Below, one piece after another: positions 2,131 to 62,305 of a stretch of DNA of 64,000 nt. The DNA is from Rufibacter roseus. Its GTDB lineage: Bacteria > Bacteroidota > Bacteroidia > Cytophagales > Hymenobacteraceae. The notes beneath the pieces are model-generated. The model was given only the letters and a program-made list of their open reading frames with translations. It was not told the origin of the DNA and did not search any database. The position numbers were made by a program, and so were the translations under genes. Every line of letters begins with the position of its first letter. The stretch's first letter is position 1. The stretch lies in assembly GCF_001647285.1 (NCBI RefSeq), contig NZ_LRML01000001.1, forward strand, positions 124,001 to 188,000. The letters are read 5' to 3'.

Positions 2131-2168
2131 TGTTTTTGGGCTAATTTTCAAAAATTAGCTTAAAAACG
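2131..2168. repeat. IPR copy 1, 17 bases past the hflX stop
   Basis: Left arm TGTTTTTGGGCTAATTTT faces right arm AAAATTAGCTTAAAAACG. The inner arms CTAATTTT and AAAATTAG are perfect. It belongs to the ~40-bp palindrome family described in the findings. Confidence 0.75.
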
Positions 2169-2184
2169 GCTGTATAACCTGCTG

Positions 2185-3384
2185 CTATTCCTGCGGCGGC
2201 GCATTGTTAGGATAGCGCTCAAAATGAATTCTGGAAACATGTTCCAGCAAAACGCGCCTCAGTTCATCTATGTTGGTTTTGTTGGCCGCCGAGATAAACA
2301 CAGCCGGAGTATGCTCACGGGCCATGTACGAAGAGCCTAATTCGGCAATGTCTGGGCGGGCATCGGGGTGTTCTTCACGCAGCTCCTGCTCTCGCTGCTC
2401 CATGTACAAATCAGTTTTGTTGAATACCAGAATCACCGGTTTTTCAGCCGACTGTATGTCTTTCAGCGTCTCGTTCACCACGGCAATATGTTCTTCAAAC
2501 GAAGGGTGAGATACATCTACCACGTGCAGCAGCAGGTCCGACTCTCTGATTTCATCTAGCGTAGACTTAAAGCTTTCTATCAGTTTGGTGGGGAGTTTCC
2601 GGATGAACCCTACCGTGTCAGAAAGCAGGAACGGAATGTTATCTATTACCACCTTGCGCACCGTGGCATCTACCGTTGCAAACAACTTGTTCTCGGCAAA
2701 CACATCTGATTTAGAGAGCAGGTTCATGAGCGTTGATTTACCTACGTTGGTATAGCCCACTAAAGATACACGCACTATACCCGAGCGTGACTTGCGCTGC
2801 TCATAGTTCTGTTTGTCAAACTTCTCCAGCTTCTCTTTCAGCAACGTGATTTTATCACGGACAATCCGGCGGTCAGTCTCGATTTCGGTTTCACCGGGAC
2901 CACGCATGGCCACGCCCCCACCTTTCTGCCGGCTTAAGTGAGTCCACATGTTGGTCAGGCGAGGAAGTAAGTAGCGGTACTGGGCTAGTTCTACCTGCGC
3001 CCGGGCAGTGGCCGTCTGGGCACGAAGCGCGAAAATATCCAGAATCAGTAAGCTGCGGTCAATGATTTTCACCTCCAGCTCACGCTCAAGGTTTCGTACC
3101 TGAGAAGGGGAGAGATCATCATCGAAAATGACCATGTCTACTTTATGCTCTTTCACATAAGCGGTAATTTCCTCCAGTTTGCCTTTGCCTACATAGGTGC
3201 GCATGTCTGGCTTATCCAGCTTCTGGATAAAGCGCTTTAAGGTTTTAGCGCCTACGGTTTCGGTTAGAAACGCCAGCTCATCCAGATACTCTTTCGTTTT
3301 CTCGTCGGTTTGGCGCCAGGCAGGTACGGCCACTAATACAGCGGTTTCCTGTTCTTTGGCCGTTACGTGCAGTTGGTTTCTCAT
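2185..3384 (-). CDS. hflX: GTPase HflX
   Basis: A 399-residue ribosome-associated GTPase of the HflX family, which can split or rescue stalled ribosomes under stress. The HflX N-terminal domain (about residues 25-190) contains MRTYVGKGKLEEI and the glycine-rich GGGVAMRGPGETEIETDRR. The G domain follows: G1 GYTNVGKSTLMN, G3 DTVGFIRKLP and G4 NKTD. The length is slightly under that of E. coli HflX. The start lies next to a block of heptamer repeats, so its promoter region is repeat-rich. It is a single gene followed by IPR copy 1 and a hairpin. Confidence 0.96.
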   Translation of the reverse strand: MRNQLHVTAKEQETAVLVAVPAWRQTDEKTKEYLDELAFLTETVGAKTLKRFIQKLDKPDMRTYVGKGKLEEITAYVKEHKVDMVIFDDDLSPSQVRNLERELEVKIIDRSLLILDIFALRAQTATARAQVELAQYRYLLPRLTNMWTHLSRQKGGGVAMRGPGETEIETDRRIVRDKITLLKEKLEKFDKQNYEQRKSRSGIVRVSLVGYTNVGKSTLMNLLSKSDVFAENKLFATVDATVRKVVIDNIPFLLSDTVGFIRKLPTKLIESFKSTLDEIRESDLLLHVVDVSHPSFEEHIAVVNETLKDIQSAEKPVILVFNKTDLYMEQREQELREEHPDARPDIAELGSSYMAREHTPAVFISAANKTNIDELRRVLLEHVSRIHFERYPNNAPPQE

Positions 3385-3392
3385 CTATTATA

Positions 3393-3434
3393 ATTAATGA
3401 ACAATGATTAATGAATAATGAACAATGGGCAATG
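3393..3434. repeat. Heptanucleotide tandem repeat, NNNAATG x6
   Basis: Six consecutive 7-base units end in AATG: ATTAATG, AACAATG, ATTAATG, AATAATG, AACAATG and GGCAATG. It lies directly upstream of the hflX start. Its reverse complement resembles the repeat at 3536-3563, so the two blocks are an inverted pair around IPR copy 2. Confidence 0.75.
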
Positions 3435-3463
3435 AACTATAATTATTGATTAAATGGAAATTA

Positions 3464-3503
3464 CTGTTTTTAGCCTCCTTTTCAGAAAACAGGCTGAAAA
3501 CAG
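3464..3503. repeat. IPR copy 2 between the cytochrome gene and hflX
   Basis: A 40-base copy. The outer arms CTGTTTTTAGCCT and AGGCTGAAAACAG pair with one T-G wobble. The inner part is TTTTC and GAAAA. Opposed heptamer repeats bracket it. Confidence 0.85.
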
Positions 3504-3535
3504 CTCCCCATAAAAACTAGGAGACTCAGAATAAT

Positions 3536-3563
3536 CATTAGTCATTAATCATTGCTCATTAAC
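3536..3563. repeat. Heptanucleotide tandem repeat, CATTNNN x4, overlapping a gene end
   Basis: Units CATTAGT, CATTAAT, CATTGCT and CATTAAC run on the + strand. The last units overlap the 3' end of the cytochrome gene, so its final residues and stop codon are written in the repeat. Confidence 0.7.
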
Positions 3564-4246
3564 AACGTGTATTGTGCCAGGGCTTCTATTTCCTGCTCCG
3601 TTAACTGTGATCGGTAGCCGGGCATTAAACCGCTGCCATTGGCAATGACTTCTTTCCTTTCTTGGGCAGAGAGTTCACTTTGCTGTAAGTTGGAAGCGCC
3701 GCCTGTACCTTTCTGTCCGTCTTCTCCATGGCAGGTAGCACAAACTTGGCTGTAAATAGCTTTGGTGTTGGCTAGCTGGGTGTCTTCCATTTCTGACAGT
3801 ATAGGGTTGCCTGCCGCCTTTGAGGTAGGTGCTTCTGCAGAAAGCGAAGTTTCTTGTAGCCTTGCCGCAGCCTCTCTTTTATCAGGACGCATTTTTAAAC
3901 TTTTAGTTTCGGCCACCCCGTACACGTACAGAAAAATCAGCAGACTTACTCCAGCCAGTATCTTGCTGTGTTTCTTGATGCCTACAATAGCCAATGGAAT
4001 GGCTGCCAGCACCAGCAGAATCTTTACCCCTAGCCATGTTGGCCAAGAGCCGTTGTAGCTGAAGGCCAACCAGGCGCCAGTCACCAAAATCAGAAGGCCA
4101 AAAACTATGTCCAGCATTTTTGTATAAGAACGAGCCTTATCTAGCGCTGTAGACTTATTCATAAACAACAATGCCACTTTGTACAAGAAAAGCAGCAGAA
4201 ACAGTATAACCACTAACAGGTGTGAATGTAAGAGAGGGGTGGTCAT
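3545..4246 (-). CDS. Membrane-anchored c-type cytochrome (SirB-like membrane domain plus cytochrome c)
   Basis: The N-terminal half has about four hydrophobic segments separated by short basic loops, resembling a SirB-type membrane domain. An Ala/Glu-rich linker follows, then a class I cytochrome c domain with the heme motif CATCH and a likely Met ligand in GSGLMPGYRSQ. The fold places the heme on the periplasmic face as an electron carrier. I chose the methionine beginning MTTPLLHSHLL. An in-frame TTG about 48 bases upstream (near 4294) would add 16 residues with no clear role. The C-terminal residues LMSND and the stop are encoded by heptamer repeats. The redox partner is unknown. Confidence 0.75.
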   Translation of the reverse strand: MTTPLLHSHLLVVILFLLLFLYKVALLFMNKSTALDKARSYTKMLDIVFGLLILVTGAWLAFSYNGSWPTWLGVKILLVLAAIPLAIVGIKKHSKILAGVSLLIFLYVYGVAETKSLKMRPDKREAAARLQETSLSAEAPTSKAAGNPILSEMEDTQLANTKAIYSQVCATCHGEDGQKGTGGASNLQQSELSAQERKEVIANGSGLMPGYRSQLTEQEIEALAQYTLLMSND

Positions 4247-4361
4247 TGATAAATAAAGTTTGTTGTAAGCTGTGGCAACGCAAAGAAAGTACAAAGGTGC
4301 CGAAATTTGCAGTAAGACCTACAGTTTCTGCGTATTGCTAGAGGTTTAGAGTAAACGCTGT

Positions 4362-4369
4362 TATCTTTG
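4362..4369 (+). promoter_or_regulatory. Candidate -7 element TATCTTTG for the glycosyltransferase operon
   Basis: TATCTTTG matches the Bacteroidota -7 consensus TAnnTTTG exactly and ends 22 bases before the ATG at 4392. I do not see a clean TTTG at the right spacing upstream, so this is only partial support. Confidence 0.4.
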
Positions 4370-4391
4370 TACTATACTTTCCCCTTCGCTC

Positions 4392-5501
4392 ATGCGCATT
4401 GCCATTGTAATCAATAAATCCTGGAACATTTTCAATTTTAGGCTCAGTCTGGTGAAAGCTTTACTTCATGCCGGCCATGAAGTAGTAGCCATTGCTCCTG
4501 AAGATGCCTACTCGGCTAAGCTTGTTGCCGAAGGTTGTGGATTTGTACCGCTCACCATGGAAAGCAAAGGCACCAACCCAGTAAAGGACATGCTGCTGAT
4601 CCGGGATTTCTACAAGGCCTACAAAAAGGTAAAGCCCGATGTGATTTTGCAATACACTATAAAGCCCAACATTTATGGAAGCATAGCCGCCAAAATGGCC
4701 GGCATTCCTACCATCAATAATGTGTCGGGTTTAGGGACAGTGTTTATTGTGCAAAACCTGGTGTCAAAAATTGCGATGGCCTTATACAAATTCTCATTCC
4801 AGTTTCCTGCCAAAGTTTTTTTCCAGAACAATGATGATAAGCAGCTTTTCTTAGAGCGTAAGCTGGTGCGGGAAGAAATAACAGAAGTGATTCCAGGGTC
4901 CGGTATAGACACCAAGAGTTTTCAGCCTGCGGCAGCATTCAAACGGCAAGAACCCTTTGTTTTTCTGATGGTGTCAAGGGCGCTTTATGAGAAAGGACTG
5001 GTGGAGTACGTAGAGGCCAGCAAAATACTGAAGGCAAAGTACCCAAATGTGCGCGTGCAGCTATTAGGTGCCATTGATGAGGAAGGCAATATCGGGATTA
5101 AGCGATCATTGGTAGAACAGTGGGCGCAGGAGGGGTGGTTAGAGTACCTTGGTACTTCTGATGACGTAGCCAGTGTAGTGCATGGCGCAGACTGCGTAGT
5201 GCTGCCCTCTTACCGCGAAGGCACGCCCCGTACCCTGCTAGAAGCAGCTGCCCTAGGGAAACCTATTGTAACGACCAATGTGCCCGGTTGTAAAGAAACT
5301 GTGGTAGATGGCTATAATGGTTATCTTTGTGAGGTGCGTAACGGTGCCGATTTAGCTGCTAAAATGGAGCAGGTATACTTGTTGCCGGAGCTGCAACTGC
5401 AGACCATGGGCCAGAACAGCCGCCAATTGGCCGAAGATAAGTTTGACGAGAAGTACGTAATTGACCGCTATTTTGCGGCTATAGAAGAGGCAACAAAATA
5501 A
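4392..5501 (+). CDS. GT4-type glycosyltransferase
   Basis: A 369-residue cytosolic glycosyltransferase with a GT-B fold. The N-terminal domain starts RIAIVINKSWNIFNFR, with GHEVVAIAP and a GLGTVF loop. The C-terminal nucleotide-sugar domain has LMVSRALYEKGL and the donor-binding E-x7-E in YREGTPRTLLEAA. It probably adds one sugar to a lipid-linked glycan or capsule precursor. The next gene (62 bases downstream, same strand) makes a dTDP-rhamnose precursor, so O-antigen or exopolysaccharide synthesis is a reasonable inference. Donor and acceptor cannot be read from sequence. Confidence 0.88.
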   Translation: MRIAIVINKSWNIFNFRLSLVKALLHAGHEVVAIAPEDAYSAKLVAEGCGFVPLTMESKGTNPVKDMLLIRDFYKAYKKVKPDVILQYTIKPNIYGSIAAKMAGIPTINNVSGLGTVFIVQNLVSKIAMALYKFSFQFPAKVFFQNNDDKQLFLERKLVREEITEVIPGSGIDTKSFQPAAAFKRQEPFVFLMVSRALYEKGLVEYVEASKILKAKYPNVRVQLLGAIDEEGNIGIKRSLVEQWAQEGWLEYLGTSDDVASVVHGADCVVLPSYREGTPRTLLEAAALGKPIVTTNVPGCKETVVDGYNGYLCEVRNGADLAAKMEQVYLLPELQLQTMGQNSRQLAEDKFDEKYVIDRYFAAIEEATK

Positions 5502-5563
5502 TAATTGAATTAGTGATTGAGTGAATAAGATTCCTCAAGCACTCATTCGCTCATTAAAAAGAT

Positions 5564-6106
5564 ATGCAAATAAAGAACTATCCATTAGCAGATGTGGTGG
5601 AAATTACCCCTCGGGTTTTCGCCGATGAACGCGGGGCCTTTTTAGAAACCTTTAGCGCAAAAGAATATGCTGGGATAGGGATAACACACAATTTCATGCA
5701 GGACAATCTTTCAGTTTCTAAAAAAGACGTCTTGCGTGGGCTTCATTTTCAGAAGCCTCCTTTTGCACAGGCTAAAATCGTGAGCGTCGTGGTAGGTAAA
5801 GCACAAGATGTTGTTGTGGATATTAGAAGAGGCTCTCCAACCTATGGACAGTATGCTACTTGCATACTAGAGGCTGAGAAACGGAACCAACTTTTTGTGC
5901 CAGTAGGGTTTGCCCATGGGTTTGTGGCTCTGGAAGAAGGTACCATCTTTACCTACAAATGCAGCAACTATTACAACAAAGAGTCTGAAGGAGGCTTGCT
6001 TTGGAATGATCCGGCTTTGGGAATTGACTGGGGCATTGAAAACCCGCTGGTTTCTGAGAAAGATGAAGTTCTGCCCACCTTGGCTGAATTTGAATCTCCT
6101 TTTTAA
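5564..6106 (+). CDS. rfbC: dTDP-4-dehydrorhamnose 3,5-epimerase
   Basis: A 180-residue cupin epimerase that converts dTDP-4-keto-6-deoxyglucose to the L-rhamnose precursor. Family landmarks are PRVFADERGAFLETF, MQDNLSVSKKDVLRGLHFQ with the catalytic histidine, VVVDIRRGSPTYGQ, and FVPVGFAHGFVAL. The length is standard. No rfbA, rfbB or rfbD lies next to it, so the rest of the pathway must be encoded elsewhere. It follows the glycosyltransferase closely and ends in a strong terminator facing murF. Confidence 0.95.
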   Translation: MQIKNYPLADVVEITPRVFADERGAFLETFSAKEYAGIGITHNFMQDNLSVSKKDVLRGLHFQKPPFAQAKIVSVVVGKAQDVVVDIRRGSPTYGQYATCILEAEKRNQLFVPVGFAHGFVALEEGTIFTYKCSNYYNKESEGGLLWNDPALGIDWGIENPLVSEKDEVLPTLAEFESPF

Positions 6107-6120
6107 AAGGAATAAAAAAC

Positions 6121-6164
6121 AAGAAAGCCTCCCAAGTTTAACTTCAGACTTAGGAGGCTTTCTT
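6121..6164. terminator. Bidirectional terminator between rfbC and murF
   Basis: AAGAAAGCCTCC at 6121-6132 pairs with GGAGGCTTTCTT at 6153-6164, and the stem extends inward through AAGT/ACTT. T-rich sequence follows on the right and A-rich sequence precedes on the left, as suits two convergent genes. Confidence 0.85.
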
Positions 6165-6173
6165 GCTTTTCAC

Positions 6174-6202
6174 CTGTTTTTCTAAAAATAAGCCAAAAAC
6201 AG
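6174..6202. repeat. IPR copy 3, short 29-base form
   Basis: It has the outer arms CTGTTTTT and AAAAACAG but lacks the left inner arm (AGCCTGTTTT), leaving CTAAAAATAAGCC in the middle. It lies 7 bases from the murF stop. The copy at 22437 has the same shortened layout. Confidence 0.65.
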
Positions 6203-6208
6203 ATGGCT

Positions 6209-7495
6209 TTATAGTAGATCCACCACTGTCTCTAAACCAATGCCTCTAGAGCCCTTCACCAGTACATGGCTGTCGCGGATGGGGTGGTCTTTAATCCATT
6301 GCATGAGAGCGCTTTTCTCAGCAAAATAGCGGAATTCAGGATGCTCCTCCGCGGCGTAGCGCATCTCTTTCCCGCAGATAAAAACTTCTGAGAAGCCTAA
6401 GCCAGCTATCTGATTTCCCAATAGTTTATGTTCTGCCTCACTTTCCTGGCCCATTTCCAGCATATCACCTAGAATAACCACCTTACGGTCTCCGGCCATT
6501 TGAGCGAAGTTTGCAACGGCCGCAGCCATAGAGCTAGGGTTGGCATTGTAAGCATCAAGTAAGATAGTGTTAGTGTCTTTCTGGACTATCTGAGAGCGGT
6601 TGTTTACTGGAGCGTAACCTGCAATAGCGGCGTTAATTTCTTCATGCGGAACCCCAAAATACTGACCAATGCAAGCAGCAGCGGCCATGTTTTCGAAATT
6701 ATAAGAGCCCATGAGGTGCGTGTGTACTTCTTCGCCGTTGGCGGCACGGTAAATCACTTGTGGGGCGACTTGCAGTAATTCAGCAGAATAATCATCCTGA
6801 GGTTGATAATACGTGACTTTATTGGCTAGTCTGCGTACCATGCGCATGAGGTGATCGTTAGAAGTATTGACGAACACTATGCCATTGGTTTTATCTAAGT
6901 GCAGGTAAAGTTCACTTTTGGCGCGGGCCACACCCTCTAAGCTGCCGAAGCCTTCTAAGTGCGCCTTGCCAATGTTGGTGATGATGCCATGTGTAGGCAG
7001 TGAGTAAGAGCAGAGTTCGGCTATGTCACCGGGGTGGTTGGCACCCATTTCAATAATGGCCAACTCGTGTTCAGGGTGTATGCTTAACAAGGTAAGCGGC
7101 ACCCCAATGTGGTTGTTCAGGTTGCCTTTGGTGCAGAGCACATTGAACCTACGGCTTAACACAGCATTGATGAGTTCTTTGGTAGTGGTTTTGCCGTTAG
7201 AACCCGTGATACCGATAAACGGAATAGAGAGTTGCTGCCGGTGGTGCAGCGCTAAAGCCTGTAAAGATTTTAAAGTGTCTGTAACCTGAATAATATTGGG
7301 GCCTGTTACCTCTGGATCTTGTACCACAGCATAGCGGGCACCTTTGTCAAGAGCCTGCTGGGCAAATTGGCTGCCTTTGAAGTTAGGGCCGTCTAAGGCA
7401 AAAAAGAGGGTGTTATCTTGCTCCGCTCTGGAATCAGTGCTTACTTTCCGGCATTCCAGGTATTTCTGGTAAAGGTGCTGAAGGGGCTCCATCAT
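6209..7495 (-). CDS. murF: UDP-N-acetylmuramoyl-tripeptide--D-alanyl-D-alanine ligase
   Basis: A 428-residue cytosolic Mur ligase that adds D-Ala-D-Ala to the peptidoglycan precursor. The MurF N-terminal domain contains STDSRAEQDNTLFFAL. The ATP loop is GITGSNGKTTTKELI (about residue 95). The central domain has AIIEMGANHPGDI and the C-terminal domain LLDAYNANPSSMAAAV, typical of MurF. The gene stands alone rather than in a dcw cluster, which is common for murF in Cytophagales-type genomes. It is divergent from the FG-GAP-type gene, with about 40 bases between starts. Confidence 0.96.
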   Translation of the reverse strand: MMEPLQHLYQKYLECRKVSTDSRAEQDNTLFFALDGPNFKGSQFAQQALDKGARYAVVQDPEVTGPNIIQVTDTLKSLQALALHHRQQLSIPFIGITGSNGKTTTKELINAVLSRRFNVLCTKGNLNNHIGVPLTLLSIHPEHELAIIEMGANHPGDIAELCSYSLPTHGIITNIGKAHLEGFGSLEGVARAKSELYLHLDKTNGIVFVNTSNDHLMRMVRRLANKVTYYQPQDDYSAELLQVAPQVIYRAANGEEVHTHLMGSYNFENMAAAACIGQYFGVPHEEINAAIAGYAPVNNRSQIVQKDTNTILLDAYNANPSSMAAAVANFAQMAGDRKVVILGDMLEMGQESEAEHKLLGNQIAGLGFSEVFICGKEMRYAAEEHPEFRYFAEKSALMQWIKDHPIRDSHVLVKGSRGIGLETVVDLL

Positions 7496-7534
7496 ATTAA
7501 AAATGGTTTAAAGTCTTATCTGAATAAATAAAGA

Positions 7535-11207: not shown

Positions 11208-11248
11208 CTGGTTTTCGGCCTGTTTTCTTTAAAACAGGCCAAAAACAG
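11208..11248. repeat. IPR copy 4, near-perfect inner stem
   Basis: The inner stem GGCCTGTTTT and AAAACAGGCC is perfect. The outer ends CTGGTTTTC and AAAAACAG pair more loosely. It starts 7 bases after the nucleotidase stop, between convergent genes. Confidence 0.85.
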
Positions 11249-12494: not shown

Positions 12495-12495
12495 G

Positions 12496-12532
12496 TGTTT
12501 TCAGCCTGTTTTCGTGAAAATAGCTAAAAAAC
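12496..12532. repeat. IPR copy 5, directly at the aminotransferase start
   Basis: TGTTTTCAGCCTGTTTTC faces GAAAATAGCTAAAAAACG. It begins 2 bases from the aminotransferase start codon, so it forms the whole leader region. It is more degenerate than most copies. Confidence 0.65.
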
Positions 12533-12559
12533 GCTTCTACAGTTTTCCCTTCTGCAAAA

Positions 12560-13147: not shown

Positions 13148-13169
13148 GTATGGTGGCAGATGTGTATGT

Positions 13170-13208
13170 TGTTTTAAGCCTGTTTTCTGAAAAAGAGCCC
13201 TAAAACAG
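13170..13208. repeat. IPR copy 6, upstream of the UDG-family gene
   Basis: TTGTTTTAAGCCTGTTTTC faces GAAAAAGAGCCCTAAAACAG. It sits between the UDG-family start and a strong terminator, so the repeat and a separate terminator coexist here. Confidence 0.7.
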
Positions 13209-13220: not shown

Positions 13221-13257
13221 ACGAAGAAGCCGGAACGTAAAGTTCCGGCTTCTTCGT
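13221..13257. terminator. Perfect terminator hairpin after the 39-residue peptide gene
   Basis: ACGAAGAAGCCGGAAC at 13221-13236 pairs perfectly with GTTCCGGCTTCTTCGT at 13242-13257 around a 5-base loop. On the minus strand it follows the small peptide stop, and TTTTAACACC follows the stem. Confidence 0.8.
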
Positions 13258-14894: not shown

Positions 14895-14938
14895 AAGCAG
14901 AAAGGCCAGCCTGATACTTCAGGCTGGCCTTTCTGCTT
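14895..14938. terminator. 20-bp perfect bidirectional terminator
   Basis: The left arm 14895-14914 pairs base for base with 14919-14938 across a 4-base loop. The stem core is AGAAAGGCCAGCCTGA. It lies just downstream of the response regulator stop and of the 50-residue peptide gene, and serves both directions. Confidence 0.88.
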
Positions 14939-18912: not shown

Positions 18913-18970
18913 ACATAACTGCTGTTTTAGGGCTGTTTTCAATAAAACAACCCTAAAACAGCAGTTATGT
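18913..18970. repeat. IPR copy 7 with arms extended through the mfd stop codon
   Basis: The core arms CTGTTTTAGGG and CCCTAAAACAG pair perfectly. The pairing continues outward through ACATAA on the left and TTATGT on the right, giving 20 perfect base pairs, plus an inner CTGTTTT/AAAACA stem. The right extension contains the last Thr codon and stop of mfd. Confidence 0.9.
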
Positions 18971-22411: not shown

Positions 22412-22436
22412 GAGTGGGAAAGATTCCTTTTTGCTA

Positions 22437-22465
22437 CTGTTTTTTGGAAAACAAAGGAAAAACAG
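22437..22465. repeat. IPR copy 8, short 29-base form
   Basis: Outer arms CTGTTTTT and AAAAACAG with the shortened middle TGGAAAACAAAGG. The same missing left inner arm is seen at 6174-6202. Confidence 0.6.
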
Positions 22466-23768: not shown

Positions 23769-23811
23769 GAGCGTTTTGGGGCTGTTTTTCAGAAAGCAAA
23801 CCCAAAATGCT
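23769..23811. repeat. IPR copy 9 with extended arms and T-rich tail
   Basis: The outer arms GAGCGTTTTGGG and CCCAAAATGCTC pair with one wobble. The triplet GGG/CCC replaces the usual AGCC/GGCT, keeping the pairing. TTTGTTATTATT follows on the right, so it could terminate the 88-residue gene 20 bases upstream. Confidence 0.75.
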
Positions 23812-25361: not shown

Positions 25362-25401
25362 CTGTTTTGGGTGTGATTTTCTGAAAACAGGTGAAAAACA
25401 G
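25362..25401. repeat. IPR copy 10, 2 bases from a stop codon
   Basis: CTGTTTTGGGTGTGATTTTC faces GAAAACAGGTGAAAAACAG. The outer ends CTGTTTT and AAAACAG pair, but the middle is degenerate. It sits 2 bases from the stop of the 25403 gene. Confidence 0.7.
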
Positions 25402-26067: not shown

Positions 26068-26115
26068 GCGGCTGTTTTGGGTCTGTTTTTCCAAAAACAG
26101 GCCCCAAACAGCCGC
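26068..26115. repeat. IPR copy 11 with GC-extended arms
   Basis: GCGGCTGTTTTGGG pairs with CCCCAAACAGCCGC, and the inner CTGTTTTT/AAAAACAG stem is perfect. On the minus strand the stem is followed by TCTTTTTACT, so it looks like a working terminator for the giant gene upstream. Confidence 0.85.
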
Positions 26116-30350: not shown

Positions 30351-30410
30351 TAGGCTGGCGCTGTTTTTAGCTTGTTTTCCTGAAAATAAGCTAAAAACAG
30401 CGCCAGCCTA
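30351..30410. repeat. IPR copy 12, 29-bp arms with one mismatch
   Basis: Left arm 30351-30379 and right arm 30382-30410 pair over 29 bases with a single mismatch and a 2-base loop. The core is CTGTTTTTAGC/GCTAAAAACAG, and TAGGCTGGCG/CGCCAGCCTA extends it. On the minus strand TTCTTTTTTATCC follows, consistent with a terminator for the 30433 gene. Confidence 0.95.
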
Positions 30411-34655: not shown

Positions 34656-34706
34656 GACTGCGGGAAATTTTCTTAATAGGATGTAAACTTGGCAACTCAA
34701 ATTTTG

Positions 34707-34743
34707 CTTTCTGGCTGATTTTTAAAAAATGGCCGGAAAACAG
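34707..34743. repeat. IPR copy 13, degenerate
   Basis: CTTTCTGGCTGATTTTT faces AAAAAATGGCCGGAAAACAG. TTTCTGGC and GCCGGAAA still pair through a T-G wobble. It lies upstream of the DinB-family gene. Confidence 0.45.
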
Positions 34744-34889: not shown

Positions 34890-34930
34890 CTGTTTTTGAT
34901 TTAGTTTTCGTAAAACAGGCAAAAAACAAG
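34890..34930. repeat. IPR copy 14, 6 bases before the Fpg/Nei start
   Basis: CTGTTTTTGATTTAGTTTTC faces GTAAAACAGGCAAAAAACAAG. It ends six bases before the ATG at 34936, so the hairpin would cover the ribosome-binding region. Confidence 0.6.
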
Positions 34931-35790: not shown

Positions 35791-35829
35791 CTGTTTTAGG
35801 GCTATTTTCTTAAAAACACGTCAAAAACG
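35791..35829. repeat. IPR copy 15, 40 bases after the Fpg/Nei stop
   Basis: CTGTTTTAGGGCTATTTTC faces TTAAAAACACGTCAAAAACG. The outer ends pair partly; the inner TTTTCTTAAAA is a short loop. Confidence 0.6.
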
Positions 35830-35875
35830 ACTAGTGGCGTAGAGGCTCGCAGATCCTCTAGACGCTACAAAGTCT
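35829..35875. repeat. Imperfect palindrome GTGGCGTAGAGG / CCTCTAGACGCTAC
   Basis: Left arm 35834-35848 and right arm 35852-35868 pair with a small bulge, and an outer GACT/AGTC extends it. It has no T-run. It lies between an IPR copy and a heptamer repeat, downstream of convergent genes. It may be a degraded mobile palindrome. Confidence 0.5.
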
Positions 35876-43366: not shown

Positions 43367-43406
43367 CTGTTTTTGACCTCCTTTTAGAAAAACAGGCCAA
43401 AAACAG
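43367..43406. repeat. IPR copy 16 between divergent tamB and channel genes
   Basis: CTGTTTTTGACCTCC faces ACAGGCCAAAAACAG over 40 bases; 11 of the outer 12 positions pair. It is one of few copies in a 5'-5' gap. Confidence 0.8.
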
Positions 43407-44387: not shown

Positions 44388-44427
44388 CTGTTTTTGGTCT
44401 GATTTTCTAAAAACAGGCCAAAAACAA
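44388..44427. repeat. IPR copy 17 between convergent channel and GNAT genes
   Basis: CTGTTTTTGGTCTG faces CAGGCCAAAAACAA; the inner TTTTC and AAAAA complete a 40-base copy. It lies 39 bases after one stop and 13 before the other. Confidence 0.8.
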
Positions 44428-46423: not shown

Positions 46424-46463
46424 AAAAGAGCGGAAACCGTTTTAACGGTTTCCGCTCTTTTTT
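46424..46463 (+). terminator. Strong terminator after terC
   Basis: AAAAGAGCGGAAACCGTT pairs with AACGGTTTCCGCTCTTTT across a 2-4 base loop, followed by a further run of T. Confidence 0.9.
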
Positions 46464-46489: not shown

Positions 46490-46531
46490 CTGGTTTTGCT
46501 CTATATTCAAAAAATAGAGCCTAAAGCTCAG
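46490..46531. repeat. IPR-like copy 18, divergent
   Basis: CTGGTTTTGCTCTATATTC faces AAAAAATAGAGCCTAAAGCT. Only the middle stem GCTCTAT/ATAGAGC is perfect. Membership in the family is uncertain. Confidence 0.35.
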
Positions 46532-53307: not shown

Positions 53308-53340
53308 AAAAGCTCCTGGCATTGCCAGGAGCTTTTTTTT
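53308..53340 (+). terminator. Strong terminator after the mosaic gene
   Basis: AAAAGCTCCTGGC pairs with GCCAGGAGCTTTT around a 3-base loop and is followed by T8. Confidence 0.92.
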
Positions 53341-53427
53341 GTGTGTCTTGCCTAAACGGTCTGCTATTTTCATTCTGTTGCCATTTGGCAGGGAGGCCTC
53401 ATGAAAAGTATAAATAGATAAGAAAGA

Positions 53428-53465
53428 CGTTTTAGCCTAGTTTTTCTGAAAACAGGGCTAAAACG
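53428..53465. repeat. IPR copy 19, CG-ended arms
   Basis: CGTTTTAGCC pairs perfectly with GGCTAAAACG. The usual CTG/CAG end is changed to CG/CG on both sides, a compensated change. The inner stem is TTTTC/GAAAA. Confidence 0.85.
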
Positions 53466-53635
53466 AGTGCCTTGTACAGGTAAACTTCAGGAAAGAGTTG
53501 TAGCAATGGTTTGGCAGGAAGCATAGAATTAATAATTTTAGATTTTCCGGCTCAGGAGTGGCAGGCTGTATGGCTTTGAGCCTTCCTGTAGCGGGTTCAC
53601 TAACAATTGTAAAACTCTTTTCAACTAACACCGCC

Positions 53636-54769: not shown

Positions 54770-55241
54770 CGGCTTCTCACTTTACTGAGTCTCATTTTCC
54801 CGAAGCCCCTGTTTCTGGCCTGTTTTCTTAAAAACAGCAGAAACAGGAGCTTCGGAAATTATAGCTTGCACTCAGGCCTCATTTCTTTTCTGCTTCTCCA
54901 CTTGCAGAACAGCTAATAGTCTGTCTGTAGTGAAGGGCATCCCTTAAGAAGAAGAAATGCAGGAAAGGTAGAGCTACACTCGCCTACGTTATCTCTAAGC
55001 CTAACGCCTATAAGAACCCTTTTAGAATAAAGCGGCAAAACTTTATTAATTCTCTCATAAAGCCTGCTGTTTAAGAAAGGTGGTTTGCTTTTCAGGATTT
55101 AAAAAATTATTATTAAAAGTCTTTTCTGTTGCTATCCTTTTAACAAAGGCAGAGAAGAAAGGTCTAATGTTGGCATTGCGGCATTTTACTTTCCTAAAAC
55201 CAAACCTGAAAACCCTTATACTACTAAGCTAACAAAAGCAT
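54770..55241. other. 472-base gap between TIM-barrel and GMC genes
   Basis: It contains an extended IPR copy (54796-54858) and then about 380 AT-rich bases that should carry the GMC promoter. TTTG with TATTATTA at 20-base spacing near 55090 is only a partial match. I see no gene in it. Confidence 0.5.
54796..54858. repeat. IPR copy 20, extended arms with compensatory C/G change
   Basis: The core CTGTTTCTG pairs with CAGAAACAG: the fourth T of the usual arm is C and its partner A is G, so pairing survives. Pairing continues outward through CCGAAGC/GCTTCGG with one mismatch and one bulge. It starts 27 bases after the stop of the 53636 gene. Confidence 0.85.
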
Positions 55242-56921: not shown

Positions 56922-56961
56922 TATCTTACCTTTCAAGCATTATTTTTATTTCACAATTACA

Positions 56962-58428
56962 ATGGCCGAAGAAGATAAAAAGAGCCTTCCGGAAAACGGT
57001 GCCAGAAGAAAGTTTCTAAAAGCGGGCGCTTTAGCGGCGGCAGGGTTCATGATTGTGCCCCGCCACGTATTGGGTGGTCCGGGCTTTTTAGCTCCTAGTG
57101 ACCGATTAATCATTGCCGGCGTAGGCGTTGGTGGCAAGGGTGAAAGCGACATCAAGAGCTTTTATGACAGCGGCAAAGCCGACATAGCGTTTCTCTGTGA
57201 CGTAGACGATAGTCGTGCCGCCAATTCTAGAAAGCGGTTCCCGAAGGCCAAGTATTACAGAGACTGGCGCGAGATGTTTGACAAAGAGCACAAGAACTTT
57301 GATGCCGTGTCCGTCTCCACCCCAGACCATAACCACGCCATCACCACCCTGGCGGCCATGCAGCTGGGCAAGCACGTGTATGTGCAGAAACCGCTCACGC
57401 ATGATATTTATGAGGCCCGCCTGCTCACCGATGCGGCAAAACGCTACAAAGTAGTAACGCAAATGGGCAACCAGGGCGCCTCCGGCGATGGAGTGCGGCA
57501 ACTGCGGGAGTGGTATGACGCCGGCATTATCGGTGACGTACACACCATCTACTCCTGGACCAATCGGCCGGTGTGGCCTCAGGGCATTCCGTGGCCAACT
57601 GCCAAAGCCGAAGTGCCGAAAGACCTGGATTGGGACCTGTGGCTAGGTACCGCCCCTTATAAAGAATACGTGTCAAAACTGGTGCCTTTCAACTGGCGCG
57701 GCTGGTGGGACTACGGCACCGGCGCCCTAGGTGACATGGGCTGCCACTTAATTGAAGCGCCTTTCAGCGTGCTGAATCTCAAATACGCCACTGATGTACA
57801 AGCCAGCGTGGGCAGCGTGTACGTAGATGAATTCAAACGGGGTTATTTCCCTGAAAGTTGCCCGCCATCTAGCCACGTTACCCTTACCTTCCCGAAGACA
57901 AACAAAACCAAAGGCCCTGTTACCCTACACTGGATGGACGGGGGCATACAACCGGTTCGGCCAGAAGAATTAGGTCCGAATGAGCTGTTTGGCGATGGTG
58001 GCAACGGTACTCTGTTCGTGGGCACCAAAGGCAAGATGATGTGCAGTACCTACGGAGCCAACCCAAGACTATTGCCTACTTCGCGTACCGAGCAGGTAAA
58101 CGTGAAACAAAAATTTGCCCGCGTACCCGGCGGAGCTGGCGGGCACTACGCCCAGTGGGTAGAGGCCGGTATTGCCGGTCACGGTAAAAAAGAAGTCAGT
58201 GCCCCCTTTGAAATTGCCGGTCCGCTTACCGAGGCTTTGCTCATGGCCAACCTCGCCATTAGAGGCATTGATGTGCAGCGGCCCAAAGCAGATGGCAGTG
58301 GTTTTGACTACCCAGGCCGCAACATTAAATTGATGTGGGACAACCAAAACATGCGGGTCACCAATTTTGATGAAGTAAACCAATTTGTCAAGCGTGAGTA
58401 CCGCAAAGGCTGGACTCTTGGGGCTTAA
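56962..58428 (+). CDS. Exported Gfo/Idh/MocA-family oxidoreductase
   Basis: 488 residues. A Tat signal is visible as ARRKFLKAGALAAAGFM near residues 14-30. The Rossmann part has DRLIIAGVGVGGKGESD and AFLCDVDD. SVSTPDHNHAITTLAAMQLG and the catalytic Lys in YVQKPLTHD follow, with substrate-binding LGDMGCHLIEAPF. Export via Tat implies folded enzyme with bound NAD(P) in the periplasm, typical of large Bacteroidota members. It starts 41 bases after the GMC gene, so probably the same operon. The reaction is likely reduction or oxidation of a keto-sugar. Confidence 0.9.
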   Translation: MAEEDKKSLPENGARRKFLKAGALAAAGFMIVPRHVLGGPGFLAPSDRLIIAGVGVGGKGESDIKSFYDSGKADIAFLCDVDDSRAANSRKRFPKAKYYRDWREMFDKEHKNFDAVSVSTPDHNHAITTLAAMQLGKHVYVQKPLTHDIYEARLLTDAAKRYKVVTQMGNQGASGDGVRQLREWYDAGIIGDVHTIYSWTNRPVWPQGIPWPTAKAEVPKDLDWDLWLGTAPYKEYVSKLVPFNWRGWWDYGTGALGDMGCHLIEAPFSVLNLKYATDVQASVGSVYVDEFKRGYFPESCPPSSHVTLTFPKTNKTKGPVTLHWMDGGIQPVRPEELGPNELFGDGGNGTLFVGTKGKMMCSTYGANPRLLPTSRTEQVNVKQKFARVPGGAGGHYAQWVEAGIAGHGKKEVSAPFEIAGPLTEALLMANLAIRGIDVQRPKADGSGFDYPGRNIKLMWDNQNMRVTNFDEVNQFVKREYRKGWTLGA

Positions 58429-58506
58429 CGGAAAGAGCTTTGAAGAAGAATCTGAAGCAACTAACGGATAGAGAAATTATGGCAGAAATGCCTAAACCAA
58501 AATAAC

Positions 58507-59070
58507 ATGAACAGACGAGAAGCAATTGCCGCTGTAGGCTGGATATTGGGCGGTACCATGATCGGGGCCGAGCTCTTAGTATCCTGCACCTCCTCCTCCT
58601 CAGCTAAGGTAAATGACCTGTTTAATCAAGATCAGGTGACTTTTCTAGATGAGGTAGGCGAAACTATATTGCCCGCCACCAGCACCCCTGGGGCTAAAGC
58701 TGCTGAAATTGGCAGTTTTATGGCCGTTATGGTGCAAGACTGCTATACCAAAGAAGACCAGAAAATCTTCATGAAAGGCATAGACCAGCTGGACGAAGCG
58801 AGTAAGAAGAAATTCAATAAGGGTTTCTTAAAAGCTACGCCCCAAGAGCGCACCGCTCTGCTTACCCAGCTAGATAAAGAGCAGAAAGAGCACCAGTTAA
58901 ACAAGAAAGAAGGCGAACCGAACCATTATTTCCGGATGATGAAAGAGCTGACCATGCTGGGCTTTTTTACCTCAGAAGTAGGTCAGACGCAGGCGCTTCG
59001 TTACGTGGAGGTGCCAGGCAAGTATGAAGCCTGTATTCCATACAAAAAAGGAGACAGAGCCTGGGCGTAA
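58507..59070 (+). CDS. Gluconate 2-dehydrogenase subunit 3-family Tat lipoprotein
   Basis: 187 residues. NRREAIAAVGWILGG is a Tat signal, and Cys27 in LLVSC fits a lipobox, so the protein is a Tat-exported lipoprotein. The body matches the subunit 3 family: FLDEVGETILPATSTPGAKAAEIGSFMAVM and YFRMMKELTMLGFFTSEVG. In known enzymes this subunit is needed for export and activity of the GMC partner. It lies third in the operon. Confidence 0.9.
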   Translation: MNRREAIAAVGWILGGTMIGAELLVSCTSSSSAKVNDLFNQDQVTFLDEVGETILPATSTPGAKAAEIGSFMAVMVQDCYTKEDQKIFMKGIDQLDEASKKKFNKGFLKATPQERTALLTQLDKEQKEHQLNKKEGEPNHYFRMMKELTMLGFFTSEVGQTQALRYVEVPGKYEACIPYKKGDRAWA

Positions 59071-59110
59071 GTAAGGAAGAGTGTTTTTCCTCCAAACATT
59101 GAGATATTAT

Positions 59111-59150
59111 CTGTTTTAGGCCTATTTTTCAGAAATTAAATCCAAAACAG
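59111..59150. repeat. IPR copy 21, 41 bases after the subunit 3 stop
   Basis: Exactly 40 bases. CTGTTTTAGGCCTATTTTTC faces AGAAATTAAATCCAAAACAG. The outer 7 bp pair perfectly and the inner half is degenerate. Confidence 0.75.
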
Positions 59151-59174
59151 ACACTACCGGTTAGTCTGAACCAC

Positions 59175-59251
59175 TCTGTCGGGGAGTTGTAATCCCCGTT
59201 GCGGGCTAATTCAGAAAGCGACTGCATGGGGATTAATAAGTCCCCGACAGA
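59175..59251. repeat. Nested palindrome with CTGTCGGGGA arms (MITE-like)
   Basis: Left arm 59176-59197 starts CTGTCGGGGA and ends AATCCCC. Right arm 59228-59250 starts GGGGATT and ends TCCCCGACAG. Both halves pair strongly with a mismatch-rich middle. The 30-base loop is unrelated. No gene is inside it. Confidence 0.65.
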
Positions 59252-59371
59252 AAACTTCCAGACTGGTAAATCTGGAAGAGCGAAATGGGAATCACTCTGG
59301 CGCAGTGGCATAGATATTTGCAGGTCTGTAACACAATGCGAGGTGTACTAACTAGTGTCACAGCGATGGCA

Positions 59372-59412
59372 GTGTTTTGGAACTGTTTTTATAATTAATA
59401 AGCGCAAAACAG
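59372..59412. repeat. IPR-like copy 22, degenerate
   Basis: TGTTTTGGAACTGTTTTTAT faces TTAATAAGCGCAAAACAG. The TGTTTTG/CAAAACA ends pair, but the centre does not. Confidence 0.45.
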
Positions 59413-59506
59413 AAATAAGTTATTACTGAAAGAAAAGTCTGCTACACCAAACTTTCTTCTTAAGAGGGGCGGGTTCGGCTTTTTGACAATACTGCATACA
59501 TAAAAC

Positions 59507-60664
59507 ATGAAAAGAAAATTACGGATGGGCATGATTGGGGGCGGCAAAGGCGCCTTCATTGGGGCCATCCACAGAATAGCCGCCACCATGGACGGAGCCA
59601 TTGAGCTGGTTTGTGGTGCCCTTAGTACCAACCCCGAAAACGCGCAACAGAGCGGACGGGAATTGTTTCTGCCCGAGCACCGGGTTTACAACAGCTATGA
59701 GGAGATGCTGGAGAAAGAAAGCGCTCTGCCGGAAGGCGAGCGGATGGACTTCGTGAGCATTGTAACGCCCAACCACGTGCACTTAGACCCGGCCCTGAAG
59801 GCGCTTGACAAAGGCTTTCATGTGGTGATTGAAAAACCAATGGCCTTCACCTTAGAAGAGGCCAGGCAATTACAGCAGAAAGTACAGGAAACTGGTTTGT
59901 TGCTCTTGCTCACCCACACCTACGCAGGTTACCCCATGGTAAAGCAGGCGCGGCAAATGGTGCAGGCAGGGGAGCTGGGCAAAATCAGAAAAGTGCTGGT
60001 AGAATACACCCAAGGCTGGCTCAGCAGGCTGTCTGAACAAGAGGGCAACGCCCAAGCTGCCTGGCGCACCGACCCCAGCAAGTCCGGCAAAAGCGGCTGC
60101 ATGGGCGATATTGGAACACACGCCGCCCACTTGGCAGAATACATTTCTGGGCAAAAGATACAGCAGGTGTGCGCGCAACTGAATACCGTGGTAGAAGGCC
60201 GCGCGTTAGACGACGACGGTAACGTGCTGCTTCGGTTCAACGAGGGCGCCACCGGTGTGTTAACGGCAAGCCAGGTGATGGCCGGTGAGGAAAATGGCCT
60301 GAAAATACGCGTGTACGGCGAAGACGGAGGTTTGGAGTGGGCGCAGCAGGAGCCTAATACCCTGGTGGTGAAATGGCTGGACAAACCTACCCAACTTCTA
60401 CGGACCGGAACCGGCGGACTTACGTCTTACGCACAGCACAATACCCGCACGCCCGGTGGCCACCCCGAAGGGTATATTGAGGCCTTCGCCAATCTGTACC
60501 GCAATTTTGCCTTAACGCTTTCTGCTAGGTTAGAAGGAACCACACCGTCTGAAGAGGCACTTGATTTTCCTTCGGTTGAAGACGGTGTACGCGGCATGGC
60601 CTTTATAGACACCGTGGTAGCCAGCAGCGCCAGCGCTGAGAAATGGACAGATTTTGTGGTTTGA
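59507..60664 (+). CDS. Cytosolic Gfo/Idh/MocA-family oxidoreductase
   Basis: 385 residues without a signal peptide. The nucleotide-binding start MKRKLRMGMIGGGKGAFIGA is followed by FVSIVTPNHVHLDPALKALD, the catalytic Lys region HVVIEKPMAFT and substrate-binding KSGCMGDIGTHAAHLAEYISG. This second family member differs from the exported 56962 gene in lacking the Tat signal, so the two probably act in different compartments. The next gene encodes a cytochrome c. Confidence 0.9.
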   Translation: MKRKLRMGMIGGGKGAFIGAIHRIAATMDGAIELVCGALSTNPENAQQSGRELFLPEHRVYNSYEEMLEKESALPEGERMDFVSIVTPNHVHLDPALKALDKGFHVVIEKPMAFTLEEARQLQQKVQETGLLLLLTHTYAGYPMVKQARQMVQAGELGKIRKVLVEYTQGWLSRLSEQEGNAQAAWRTDPSKSGKSGCMGDIGTHAAHLAEYISGQKIQQVCAQLNTVVEGRALDDDGNVLLRFNEGATGVLTASQVMAGEENGLKIRVYGEDGGLEWAQQEPNTLVVKWLDKPTQLLRTGTGGLTSYAQHNTRTPGGHPEGYIEAFANLYRNFALTLSARLEGTTPSEEALDFPSVEDGVRGMAFIDTVVASSASAEKWTDFVV

Positions 60665-60681
60665 TTTTTAACTAACATCAT

Positions 60682-60720
60682 CTGTTTTTGGCCTGTTTTT
60701 CTGAAAACGGATCAAAAACA
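60682..60720. repeat. IPR copy 23, 17 bases after the Gfo/Idh stop
   Basis: CTGTTTTTGGCCTGTTTTTC faces TGAAAACGGATCAAAAACA. The outer end pairs through TGTTTTTG/CAAAAACA. Confidence 0.75.
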
Positions 60721-60781
60721 TCAACAGAAATAAGAAAGGCACTAAAAGAAAACCACTTACCAATTACCTCTTACACAAATC

Positions 60782-61258
60782 ATGAAAAAATTAGCACTCC
60801 TTTTTAGCTGCTGCGCCCTCATGGCAGCTTGCAACAGTAAGTCTTCTACAAACGAATATGACAAATACTACGAAAGCCAGGACAAAGACTCTACCAGTTC
60901 TGCCCAGCTAAGTGCGGCCACCCGTCAGCCCGCCGATGTAGACACCAATGTTATGAATATTGGCACTGACCGCACCGCCGGAACCACCGCCCTGCCTGAT
61001 GCCGACAAAGGCGCCAAGTTAGTGGCCCAGTCTGACTGTACCGCCTGCCACCGTAACGACCAGAAATTAGTAGGGCCGGCCTATGAGGCCGTAGCTCAAA
61101 AGTATGAGGTGAACGAAAAAACACTGGATTATCTGGCTGAGAAAATTATTAAAGGAGGCAAAGGTGTATGGGGCGAGATTCCTATGACCCCTCACCCAAA
61201 TATGAGCGAAGAAGACGCCAAAGCCATGGCTCAATATGTAATGTCTCTTAAAAAATAA
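60782..61258 (+). CDS. Class I cytochrome c lipoprotein
   Basis: 158 residues. The lipobox is LMAAC (Cys17). A 60-residue Ser/Thr/Asp-rich tether follows, then the heme domain GAKLVAQSDCTACHRNDQ with CTACH at residues 86-90. The Met axial ligand is in GEIPMTPHPNM. The size and form match the electron-accepting cytochromes beside GMC dehydrogenases. Its stop is immediately followed by the DUF1080 gene, so the two are co-transcribed. Confidence 0.9.
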   Translation: MKKLALLFSCCALMAACNSKSSTNEYDKYYESQDKDSTSSAQLSAATRQPADVDTNVMNIGTDRTAGTTALPDADKGAKLVAQSDCTACHRNDQKLVGPAYEAVAQKYEVNEKTLDYLAEKIIKGGKGVWGEIPMTPHPNMSEEDAKAMAQYVMSLKK

Positions 61259-61267
61259 TTGAAACTG

Positions 61268-62005
61268 ATGTTGATCCAAAGAATATTACCCGTGCTATCA
61301 TTGGCGGCACTTTTGTCCTGCCAGTCCTCACAAACTGGAAACACCATGTCAAACGCACAAACCAATGCCAAGAGCTCTGACTGGAAGCCCTTGTTCGATG
61401 GCAAAACCACCAACGGCTGGCACAGCTACGGAAAGGAAACCGCCGGCAAAGCCTGGAAAGCGGAAGACGGCATGCTGCGTCTGGACGCCTCGGCCAAGAA
61501 AGACTGGCAAACCAATGAAGGCGGTGACATTGTCACCGAAGAAAGCTATGAAGATTTCCACCTGAAGCTAGACTGGAAAATAGCCCAGAACGGCAACAGC
61601 GGCATTATCATCTATGTGCAGGATGAGCCAGCCAAATACCAGTACGTGTGGCAGACTGGCCCTGAAATTCAGGTGTTGGACAACGACGGCCACCCAGATG
61701 CCAAAATCCACAAGCACCGCGCCGGAGACCTGTACGATCTGGTAGCCAGCAGCCCTGAAACCGTAAAGCCTGCCGGGCAATGGAACCGGGTGGAAATCAT
61801 CAGCCAGAACGGAAAGTTGGAGGTTGTGCAGAACGGCCAAAAGGTGCTCACCACCACCATGTGGGACGATAACTGGCGGAACATGATTGCGGGCAGCAAA
61901 TTCTCTCAGATGCCTGGTTTCGGTACGTTTAAATCGGGTAAGATTGCCCTGCAAGACCACGGTGATGATGTGTGGTTCAAGAACATCATGATCAAACGAC
62001 TGTAG
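61268..62005 (+). CDS. DUF1080 (3-keto-disaccharide hydrolase family) lipoprotein
   Basis: 245 residues from ATG 61268; an in-frame TTG abuts the cytochrome stop at 61259. The lipobox is ALLSC (Cys18). The DUF1080 fold is recognised by WKPLFDGKTTNGWHSYG and GNSGIIIYVQDEPAKYQYVW, and by GPEIQVLDNDGHPDAKI. Pfam describes the family as 3-keto-disaccharide hydrolase from work on Bacteroides proteins. Its place beside a sugar dehydrogenase and cytochrome supports action on a 3-keto product in the periplasm. The exact substrate is unknown. Confidence 0.88.
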   Translation: MLIQRILPVLSLAALLSCQSSQTGNTMSNAQTNAKSSDWKPLFDGKTTNGWHSYGKETAGKAWKAEDGMLRLDASAKKDWQTNEGGDIVTEESYEDFHLKLDWKIAQNGNSGIIIYVQDEPAKYQYVWQTGPEIQVLDNDGHPDAKIHKHRAGDLYDLVASSPETVKPAGQWNRVEIISQNGKLEVVQNGQKVLTTTMWDDNWRNMIAGSKFSQMPGFGTFKSGKIALQDHGDDVWFKNIMIKRL

Positions 62006-62007
62006 TT

Positions 62008-62047
62008 TTGTTTTAGGCTTGGTTTTTAGAAATCCTGCCAAAATCAG
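62008..62047. repeat. IPR copy 24, degenerate, 3 bases after the DUF1080 stop
   Basis: TTGTTTTAGGCTTGGTTTTT faces AGAAATCCTGCCAAAATCAG. GGC/GCC and TTTT/AAAA remain paired. Confidence 0.5.
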
Positions 62048-62102
62048 AAAGCATCAGAAACGACTGCCGATAGGAGGCACTTGTATGTCAGCTTGCCTGC
62101 TT

Positions 62103-62232
62103 CAAGTTTAGCGACAGCGTAACTTGGAGCCAACATTGCGGCAAGTTTTCAACTTGCGTGACAAGGCAGGTGCATTACTAAAGTTGAAAACTTTCACCAT
62201 AGGAGCCACAAGTTACGCTGTTGCTAAACTTG
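62103..62232. repeat. Nested 130-base palindrome (MITE-like)
   Basis: The outer arms at 62103-62126 and 62209-62232 pair over 24 bases with one mismatch (ends CAAGTTTAGC and GCTAAACTTG). The inner arms AAGTTTTCAACTT at 62143-62155 and AAGTTGAAAACTT at 62181-62193 are perfect complements. No coding region lies inside. Confidence 0.8.
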
Positions 62233-62265
62233 CGGCAGAAGAAAAGAGGTGGATGGGCTGCTCTT

Positions 62266-62305
62266 CTGTTTTTAGCTTGTTTTCTTTAAAGTAGGCTGAA
62301 AACAG
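62266..62305. repeat. IPR copy 25, 40 bases
   Basis: CTGTTTTTAGCTTGTTTTC faces TTTAAAGTAGGCTGAAAACAG. The outer arms pair with wobbles. It lies in the leader region of the permease gene. Confidence 0.75.

Follow-up and report, generated by a model that had tools for sequence, protein, structure and literature searches.

What is a short palindrome doing when it recurs, in ever-changing versions, between the genes of a bacterial chromosome? The question is raised by a 64,000-nucleotide stretch of the Rufibacter roseus genome (contig NZ_LRML01000001.1, C1:124001-188000 in a 5.12-Mb draft), here called the window, in which 25 palindromes of 40 bp are dispersed. A first-pass annotation of this DNA had described them as REP-like (REP, repetitive extragenic palindrome), with a possible role at mRNA 3' ends. 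We favor another reading, in which the element is a two-fold symmetric site on double-stranded DNA for an abundant oligomeric DNA-binding protein, most likely acting as a bidirectional boundary between transcription units; we put its probability slightly above one half (about 0.52). The parts of this reading differ in strength. A putative protein site on double-stranded DNA, kept by selection, is well supported by the sequence comparisons described here, a bidirectional boundary between transcription units is plausible, and the identity and oligomeric state of the protein are what we infer. By the tests made, the element is not a REP, a MITE (miniature inverted-repeat transposable element), an intrinsic terminator or an uptake signal.

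A rigid dyad of 40 bp

All 25 palindromes of the first-pass annotation are present; two starts move by 11 bases when placed in register (6174 to 6163 and 22437 to 22426). An excess over shuffled sequence had been set beforehand as the test of the family, and it is found: at an ad hoc full-motif score of at least 23 the window contains 24 peaks, and three dinucleotide shuffles contain 0, 0 and 0. Copy 46490 scores 21.3 on this scale, where shuffles reach 21 at two to five places, and 18.4 bits by a later weight matrix. That matrix, trained on 800 kb (contigs C1 and C12) and applied with a cut of 16 bits, detects 585 copies in 1.6 of the 5.1 Mb, 328 of them on contigs outside the training set (C23 and C33). 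One shuffle per contig gave no match and an earlier shuffle of the 800 kb gave one. By extrapolation the genome holds about 1,870 copies.

The unit is exactly 40 bp long and consists of two 19-nucleotide arms around a 2-nucleotide centre, with the consensus CTGTTTTNRGCCTGTTTTY-NN-RAAAACAGGCYNAAAACAG; a single window copy (59372) has a centre of 3 nucleotides. Within each arm the word TGTTTT occurs twice, at a distance of 11 bp. Constraint is strongest in the T/A tracts, which are phased inside each half and whose positions 5-7 and 16-18, like their partners, are 92-98% a single base. Positions 14, 15 and 19 are weak, and positions 1, 8, 20 and 21 are nearly free. The idea that all four tracts face one side of the helix was dropped: the period is 11 bp within a half, but tract centres lie about 8 bp apart across the dyad.

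The spacing of these parts is rigid. Any variant with an altered centre is found at no more than 4 sites and any variant with altered spacing within a half at no more than 7, compared with 576 sites for the standard arrangement. The two arms are also equivalent: in 155 copies from tandem spacers, oriented by transcription, 0 of 20 columns differ between arms (lowest p 0.063). Rigid spacing, dyad symmetry and a motif that is retained despite turnover of its free bases are the properties of a protein-binding dyad. Since the dyad is rigid and both halves are used all-or-none, an oligomeric protein on double-stranded DNA appears the best explanation. Two TGTTTT words per half, with the halves facing each other at a fixed distance, would therefore call for a dimer or a dimer of dimers. 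In this context, PhoB/OmpR-type boxes are 7-bp direct repeats with an 11-bp period that are bound head-to-tail, and the CTGTTTT-N4-CTGTTTT of the element resembles them. The 11-bp direct repeats thus make four recognition domains plausible, although here a rigid dyad with nearly two thousand copies combines two boxes in facing orientation, and no protein of this type was linked to it.

All-or-none use of the halves also bears on the idea of a self-recognition or DNA-uptake signal. Known uptake signals are short motifs that often occur singly. Like DUS and USS, the element is genus-specific and abundant, a motif without shared flanks, and it is scarce beside low-GC genes. It differs from them in its length of 40 bp and its mostly intergenic position, and above all in occurring as whole dyads, half-sites outside complete elements being at chance level (302 versus 295 in shuffles). 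On this ground an uptake signal was rejected, and we regard it as the least probable of the explanations considered, hardly worth more than a mention.

Many copies without a master sequence

Similarly, the relation of the copies to each other can be used to ask whether they were spread by copying. REPs and MITEs share a master sequence. Here all 585 copies are distinct, the closest pair being identical at 38 of 40 bases, and the flanks are unrelated, with 1 of 65,792 flank comparisons among the first 257 copies reaching 20 of 30 identities. With no identical copies and no related flanks, a MITE was rejected. Excerpts of the REP literature describe tens to hundreds of perfect copies, terminal tags and a link to RAYT genes, along with CGTC families that lack a transposase (PMC2817692, PMC3733652, PMC8049555). 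Neither tag is enriched near the ends of our element: GTAG occurs in 46 of 585 copies compared with 72 in a displaced-window control, and CGTC in 21 compared with 31.5. Genes of the RAYT type (Y1_Tnp) are found in 15 of the 16 genus genomes, yet the one without a match (G017) retains 475 sites of the strict pattern defined below. Around eight RAYT loci of about 3.3 kb each, seven have one to five elements and one has none, a local density not under the average. Copy diversity, absent tags and the Y1-free genome led us to reject REP/RAYT mobility.

What could still be proposed is that a mobile family of the REP/REPIN or MITE type expanded long ago in the ancestor of the genus and that the copies are its decaying remains, or, as a variant, that they have an ancient mobile origin and were later exapted. 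The high copy number, the palindromic form, the intergenic and genus-limited occurrence and the RAYT-type genes would fit such a history. Besides the diversity of copies and flanks and the Y1-free genome, three observations speak against it. Few copies are decayed, as the score distribution is bimodal, 564 of 602 matches of at least 10 bits still reaching at least 20. Copies are scarce beside low-GC genes. Finally, spacers of at least 80 bp contain 0, 1, 2 or 3 elements in 411, 400, 42 and 5 cases, a variance-to-mean ratio of 0.65; this under-dispersion is the opposite of random accumulation. We therefore consider a mobile relic quite improbable.

The likeness to REP, REPIN and BIME elements is nevertheless real in part. 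According to excerpts of PMC3733652, these short palindromes between genes number in the hundreds to thousands and prefer convergent and co-directional spacers, as the 40-bp element does. It differs in that GTAG/CGTC tags, identical copies and a head or tail are lacking, that no clear link to RAYT genes is seen, and that it has a fixed spacing and one copy per spacer. In the first-pass annotation the family was REP-like but matched no name the annotator knew. That the palindromes form a real family, dispersed between genes and biased towards 3' ends, is confirmed, and no name match was found for it; a copied repeat is not supported, with copies that all differ, unrelated flanks, no tag, a fixed geometry and mostly one element per spacer. 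The remark that no transposase is present agrees with a Pfam scan of 30 window proteins, a subset of the open reading frames, in which no transposase family appeared. A scan of the window with Rfam returned 0 families at gathering score, one copy used as query against plasmid and phage records gave no match at E 0.01, and among open-licence papers no description of the element was found.

Double-stranded DNA or an RNA hairpin

Arm symmetry alone does not exclude a function in RNA, because the palindrome is identical on both strands. More informative is the covariation of partner positions. In 257 copies none is detected at positions 12-19, while positions 1, 2 and 7-11 and the pairs just outside the element covary, most strongly 7 and 8. 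In the same set 35 copies have 17-19 complementary pairs, with about 5 expected, and in 20 of about 257 the flanks add 6 or more pairs to the palindrome, with 0.26 expected. The covariation signal stems from this minority of copies, and the remainder behave like independent halves of one dyad. Quasi-palindromes are known to be corrected by template switching; such correction, or use as a terminator stem, could be the source of the near-perfect palindromes.

A bidirectional intrinsic terminator or a 3'-UTR (untranslated region) hairpin that ends or protects mRNA would benefit from the 3' bias, from the excess of near-perfect and flank-extended copies, and from some terminators for which the element's first T-tract serves as the T-tail. 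The inner arms without covariation argue against it, as do the T-tracts themselves, which are located in the 5' arm and not behind the stem. Most copies lack the GC-rich RNA stem followed by a U-tract that defines an intrinsic terminator, and only 13 terminator calls span the entire element. Indels, which a hairpin could tolerate, are almost absent, and for half of the divergent occupancy there is no 3' end on which it could act. An RNA hairpin as the general function was thus rejected, although near-perfect hairpins make up a minority of the copies, and we judge an RNA-level element unlikely. For most copies an mRNA-hairpin role lacks support, the inner-arm partners varying independently and near-perfect palindromes amounting to only about 13%. 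Of the roles named in the first-pass annotation, nucleoid structure may still apply, and together with a role at gene borders it is the direction we prefer.

As a separate observation, in 23 of 257 copies the palindrome continues for 5-17 bp, the outermost arm base counted, into otherwise unrelated flanks, and some of these flank-extended copies sit within the stem of a terminator-like hairpin.

Placement at the borders of genes

Gene calls beyond those of the open reading frame tool come from a simple gene caller of our own. By these calls, the 25 window copies lie in 18 tandem, 4 convergent and 3 divergent spacers, and 16 of them have a facing stop codon no more than 45 bp away, as had been noted for most copies. 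Counting spacers no shorter than 45 bp across the 1.6 Mb, an element is found in 119 of 157 between convergent genes, in 307 of 655 between tandem genes and in 49 of 172 between divergent genes. The order persists at matched length, with occupancies of 0.77-0.96 in convergent spacers, 0.31 up to about 0.65 in tandem ones and 0.08 up to about 0.35 in divergent ones. In 400 kb of a second genome, G012, the corresponding numbers are 22 of 33, 71 of 156 and 16 of 35, divergent spacers there being filled as frequently as tandem ones. The promoter -7 motif of this phylum is TAnnTTTG, and it lies past the element in a fraction of 0.81 compared with 0.68 for random placement (0.90 and 0.81 in G012).

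Occupancy also follows the composition of the neighbouring genes. It is 17% beside the genes of lowest GC (<0.42, n=86), which are possibly foreign, and 69% beside those of highest GC (n=86). Tracts of 25-32 kb without elements, with a GC below that of the rest, were also seen, for example C1:47025-72524 and C33:137593-169294; they are possible genomic islands.

An architectural or topological site, at which a lineage-specific nucleoid protein or topoisomerase bends DNA or absorbs supercoils but does not act directly on transcription ends, would draw equally on the rigid spacing and on half-sites being no commoner than chance. The phased T/A tracts in each half and the occupancy of divergent spacers would also suit it. 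The positions are less favorable, since an even, nucleosome-like spacing along the chromosome was not found (coefficient of variation 0.91 compared with 0.84, standard deviation 0.05, for random spacers) and the order convergent, tandem, divergent is strong at matched length. Nor is the nucleoid protein HU duplicated in the genus: each of the 16 genomes has one strong PF00216 gene, as do nine other genomes of the family that were searched, while G051 has an additional gene of the HU-HIG type. We see in such a site a possible but clearly weaker contender.

Range and persistence of the element

A search of the genome and of related Hymenobacteraceae, which the first-pass annotation had proposed, was run: besides the 585 copies in 1.6 Mb it found the element genus-wide and near-absent in five other genera. 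For this comparison a strict pattern was used, TGTTTTN5TGTTTTN4AAAACAN5AAAACA with at most 3 mismatches. It has 1,062 sites in the own genome, 31-1,675 in each of the 15 other genus genomes, and 0-2 in each of 184 genomes from five other genera of the family; a backwards control gives 0-1. Strict counts are too low for some species, as in G051, which has 31 strict sites but 10 matrix matches of at least 20 bits in a 20-kb locus, like its sisters. In a phylum-wide sample of 296 genomes, searched with at most 2 mismatches, matches occur only in the own genome and in one other (1 site). The 40-bp element is therefore restricted to the genus among the genomes searched. With very near records excluded, HflX places Pontibacter (77-79% identity) as the nearest named relative, followed by Adhaeribacter and Hymenobacter, and no analogous palindrome family was seen by eye in nine outgroup loci.

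Within the genus, individual sites can be followed through an 11-kb region that is present in all 16 genomes, split by insertions in some; a site was counted as present at 10 bits or more. In the spacer after HflX (window 2130) the element is found in 16 of 16 genomes. Beside the stop codon of the Mur-ligase gene (window 6163) it is again in 16 of 16, of which 15 are in register and that of G054 is 158 bp off. The nucleotidase/aminotransferase spacer (window 11209) has it in 15 of 16, with G057 lacking it. The spacers upstream of the aminotransferase gene and of the UDG-family gene fall outside the coverage of G063; in the genomes covered, the former (window 12495) is occupied in 15 of 15 and the latter (window 13169) in 14 of 15, with G048 lacking it. 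At the corresponding loci of five Pontibacter, one Adhaeribacter and one Hymenobacter no match of at least 20 bits was found, and one Pontibacter match has 11 bits.

What persists in these spacers is the motif and not the individual sequence. Flank identity of orthologous elements is 0.26-0.34, except that the aminotransferase site reaches 0.57 on the flank towards the coding sequence. Comparing the own genome with the 400 kb of G012, 31 orthologous spacers divide into 15 with the element in both, 4 and 3 in a single one and 9 in neither (p 0.0075). The elements of 12 orthologous pairs, each the single copy of its spacer, have a similarity of 0.656, compared with 0.653 for shuffled pairs. In orthologous spacers the motif persists, whereas its free bases have been replaced.

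In the same region, five species have an interval of about 12 kb between the rfbC-like gene and the Mur-ligase gene that contains no element and is flanked by elements on either side (L160-L161, L162-L163, L165-L166, L169-L170, L171-L172). This interval is likely an insertion hot spot.

A proposed boundary between transcription units

About one complex per occupied spacer, towards the 3' side, clear of the next promoter and in native DNA, fits a boundary. Following this reading, in native DNA selection would maintain about one site in most spacers that separate transcription units. Once bound, the complex would halt or slow RNA polymerase reading through from either side, may shield the next promoter and would probably also hold local supercoils. 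Among known systems, matS, parS and Noc sites are lineage-specific, chromosome-wide motifs read by a protein. The 40-bp element likewise spreads across the chromosome of one lineage and is apparently protein-read; it differs in its length, its far higher number of copies and its location at gene borders. Reb1 and TTF-I are roadblock terminators of eukaryotes. They illustrate how a protein-bound site at gene borders could stop a polymerase, here only by analogy.

Several results weigh against a boundary, or limit what it explains. Divergent spacers need no terminator and yet are occupied in 28% of cases in the own genome and 46% in G012. Convergent spacers carry a terminator in 31 of 54 occupied and 11 of 16 unoccupied cases, with no sign that the element replaces it. 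A terminator lies ahead of the element in a fraction of 0.76 compared with 0.87 for random placement; we make no claim that the element follows terminators because of this null, and an earlier finding that terminators precede it (16 versus 3 in tandem spacers; 67 versus 21) was withdrawn. The first-pass annotation had all copies between genes, which is so in the window, with 0 of 25 within a called gene; genome-wide 48 of 585 lie inside called genes, individual cases unchecked. Some conserved sites are at or near start codons. Among them, the aminotransferase site, which touches the ATG in most members of the genus, is exceptional in that its orthologues have a similarity of 0.81 and a constant orientation; this suggests a second role, in initiation. 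Mean nearest-neighbour identity of the copies is 33.4, a small excess over the 32.9 of an independent-site model. Nor is the 3' bias proof of a 3' function, because REPs, in the excerpts of PMC3733652, share it.

The search for the protein itself adds a further point on this side. Screens for small basic and for codon-biased genes covered about 2.0 of 5.1 Mb (~39% of the genome), and in this part no genus-specific candidate for the binding protein was found. The candidate lists, of 50 and 44 proteins, are largely ribosomal or housekeeping by eye. The basic protein of highest codon bias is also present in two other genera of the family, and ten further small proteins have no known DNA-binding domain, one Hc1-like protein excepted. 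As an observation in its own right, L251:15102-15290 encodes a 62-residue Hc1-type histone H1-like protein with high codon bias.

If the boundary reading is true, the ancestor of the genus acquired a dedicated boundary system based on a protein, and the genus has retained this system across the native chromosome. It would offer a direct entry to how bacteria prevent read-through and supercoil spill-over between genes, and an unusual case in which palindromes this numerous are marked by selection rather than by copying. More tentatively, and with the odds against it, one may picture a full insulator system, in which a lineage-specific protein on the dyad in most convergent and about half of the tandem spacers would split the native chromosome into transcriptional or topological domains, nearly two thousand in number, as a bacterial counterpart of insulator or roadblock-terminator proteins.

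Individual copies in the window

The copies of the window are given here in window positions without strand. Four are in convergent spacers: 6163..6202 (42.2 bits), directly behind a canonical terminator hairpin (inverted repeat 6115-6170), 11209..11248 (46.2 bits), 35791..35830 (45.7 bits) and 44388..44427 (50.9 bits). The three divergent ones are 43367..43406 (51.0 bits) and a pair that shares a spacer, 34704..34743 (33.2 bits) and 34890..34929 (38.0 bits), the latter 6 bp from the start codon of a Fapy-glycosylase gene.

Tandem spacers contain the copies at 3464..3503 (47.3 bits), 22426..22465 (28.1 bits), 23771..23810 (40.7 bits), 25362..25401 (42.1 bits), 26072..26111 (45.3 bits), 53427..53466 (39.1 bits), 54809..54848 (31.3 bits), 59111..59150 (44.6 bits) and 60682..60721 (46.7 bits). 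Another tandem spacer holds two elements, one at 62008..62047 (32.0 bits), 2 bp past a stop codon, and one at 62266..62305 (42.8 bits).

Some copies are distinguished by their neighbours. The one at 2130..2169 (42.4 bits) lies 15 bp from the stop codon of the HflX-type GTPase gene, that at 12495..12534 (40.5 bits) touches the ATG that starts the aminotransferase gene and is separated by 25 bp from the stop codon of the UDG-family gene, and that at 13169..13208 (50.2 bits) is upstream of the UDG-family gene, next to a terminator (13221-13257). In two copies the palindrome continues into the flanks, 18922..18961 (50.4 bits; whole palindrome 18913-18970) and 30361..30400 (46.0 bits; 30351-30410). 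A weak element, 46490..46529 (18.4 bits), lies behind a canonical terminator (46424-46461), and the degenerate copy with the 3-nucleotide centre, 59372..59412, scores 21.6 bits by model R2 and falls under the matrix cut. Distinct from all 40-bp elements, canonical GC-hairpin inverted repeats resembling intrinsic terminators occur at 6115-6170, 13221-13257, 14895-14938, 46424-46461 and 53308-53336.

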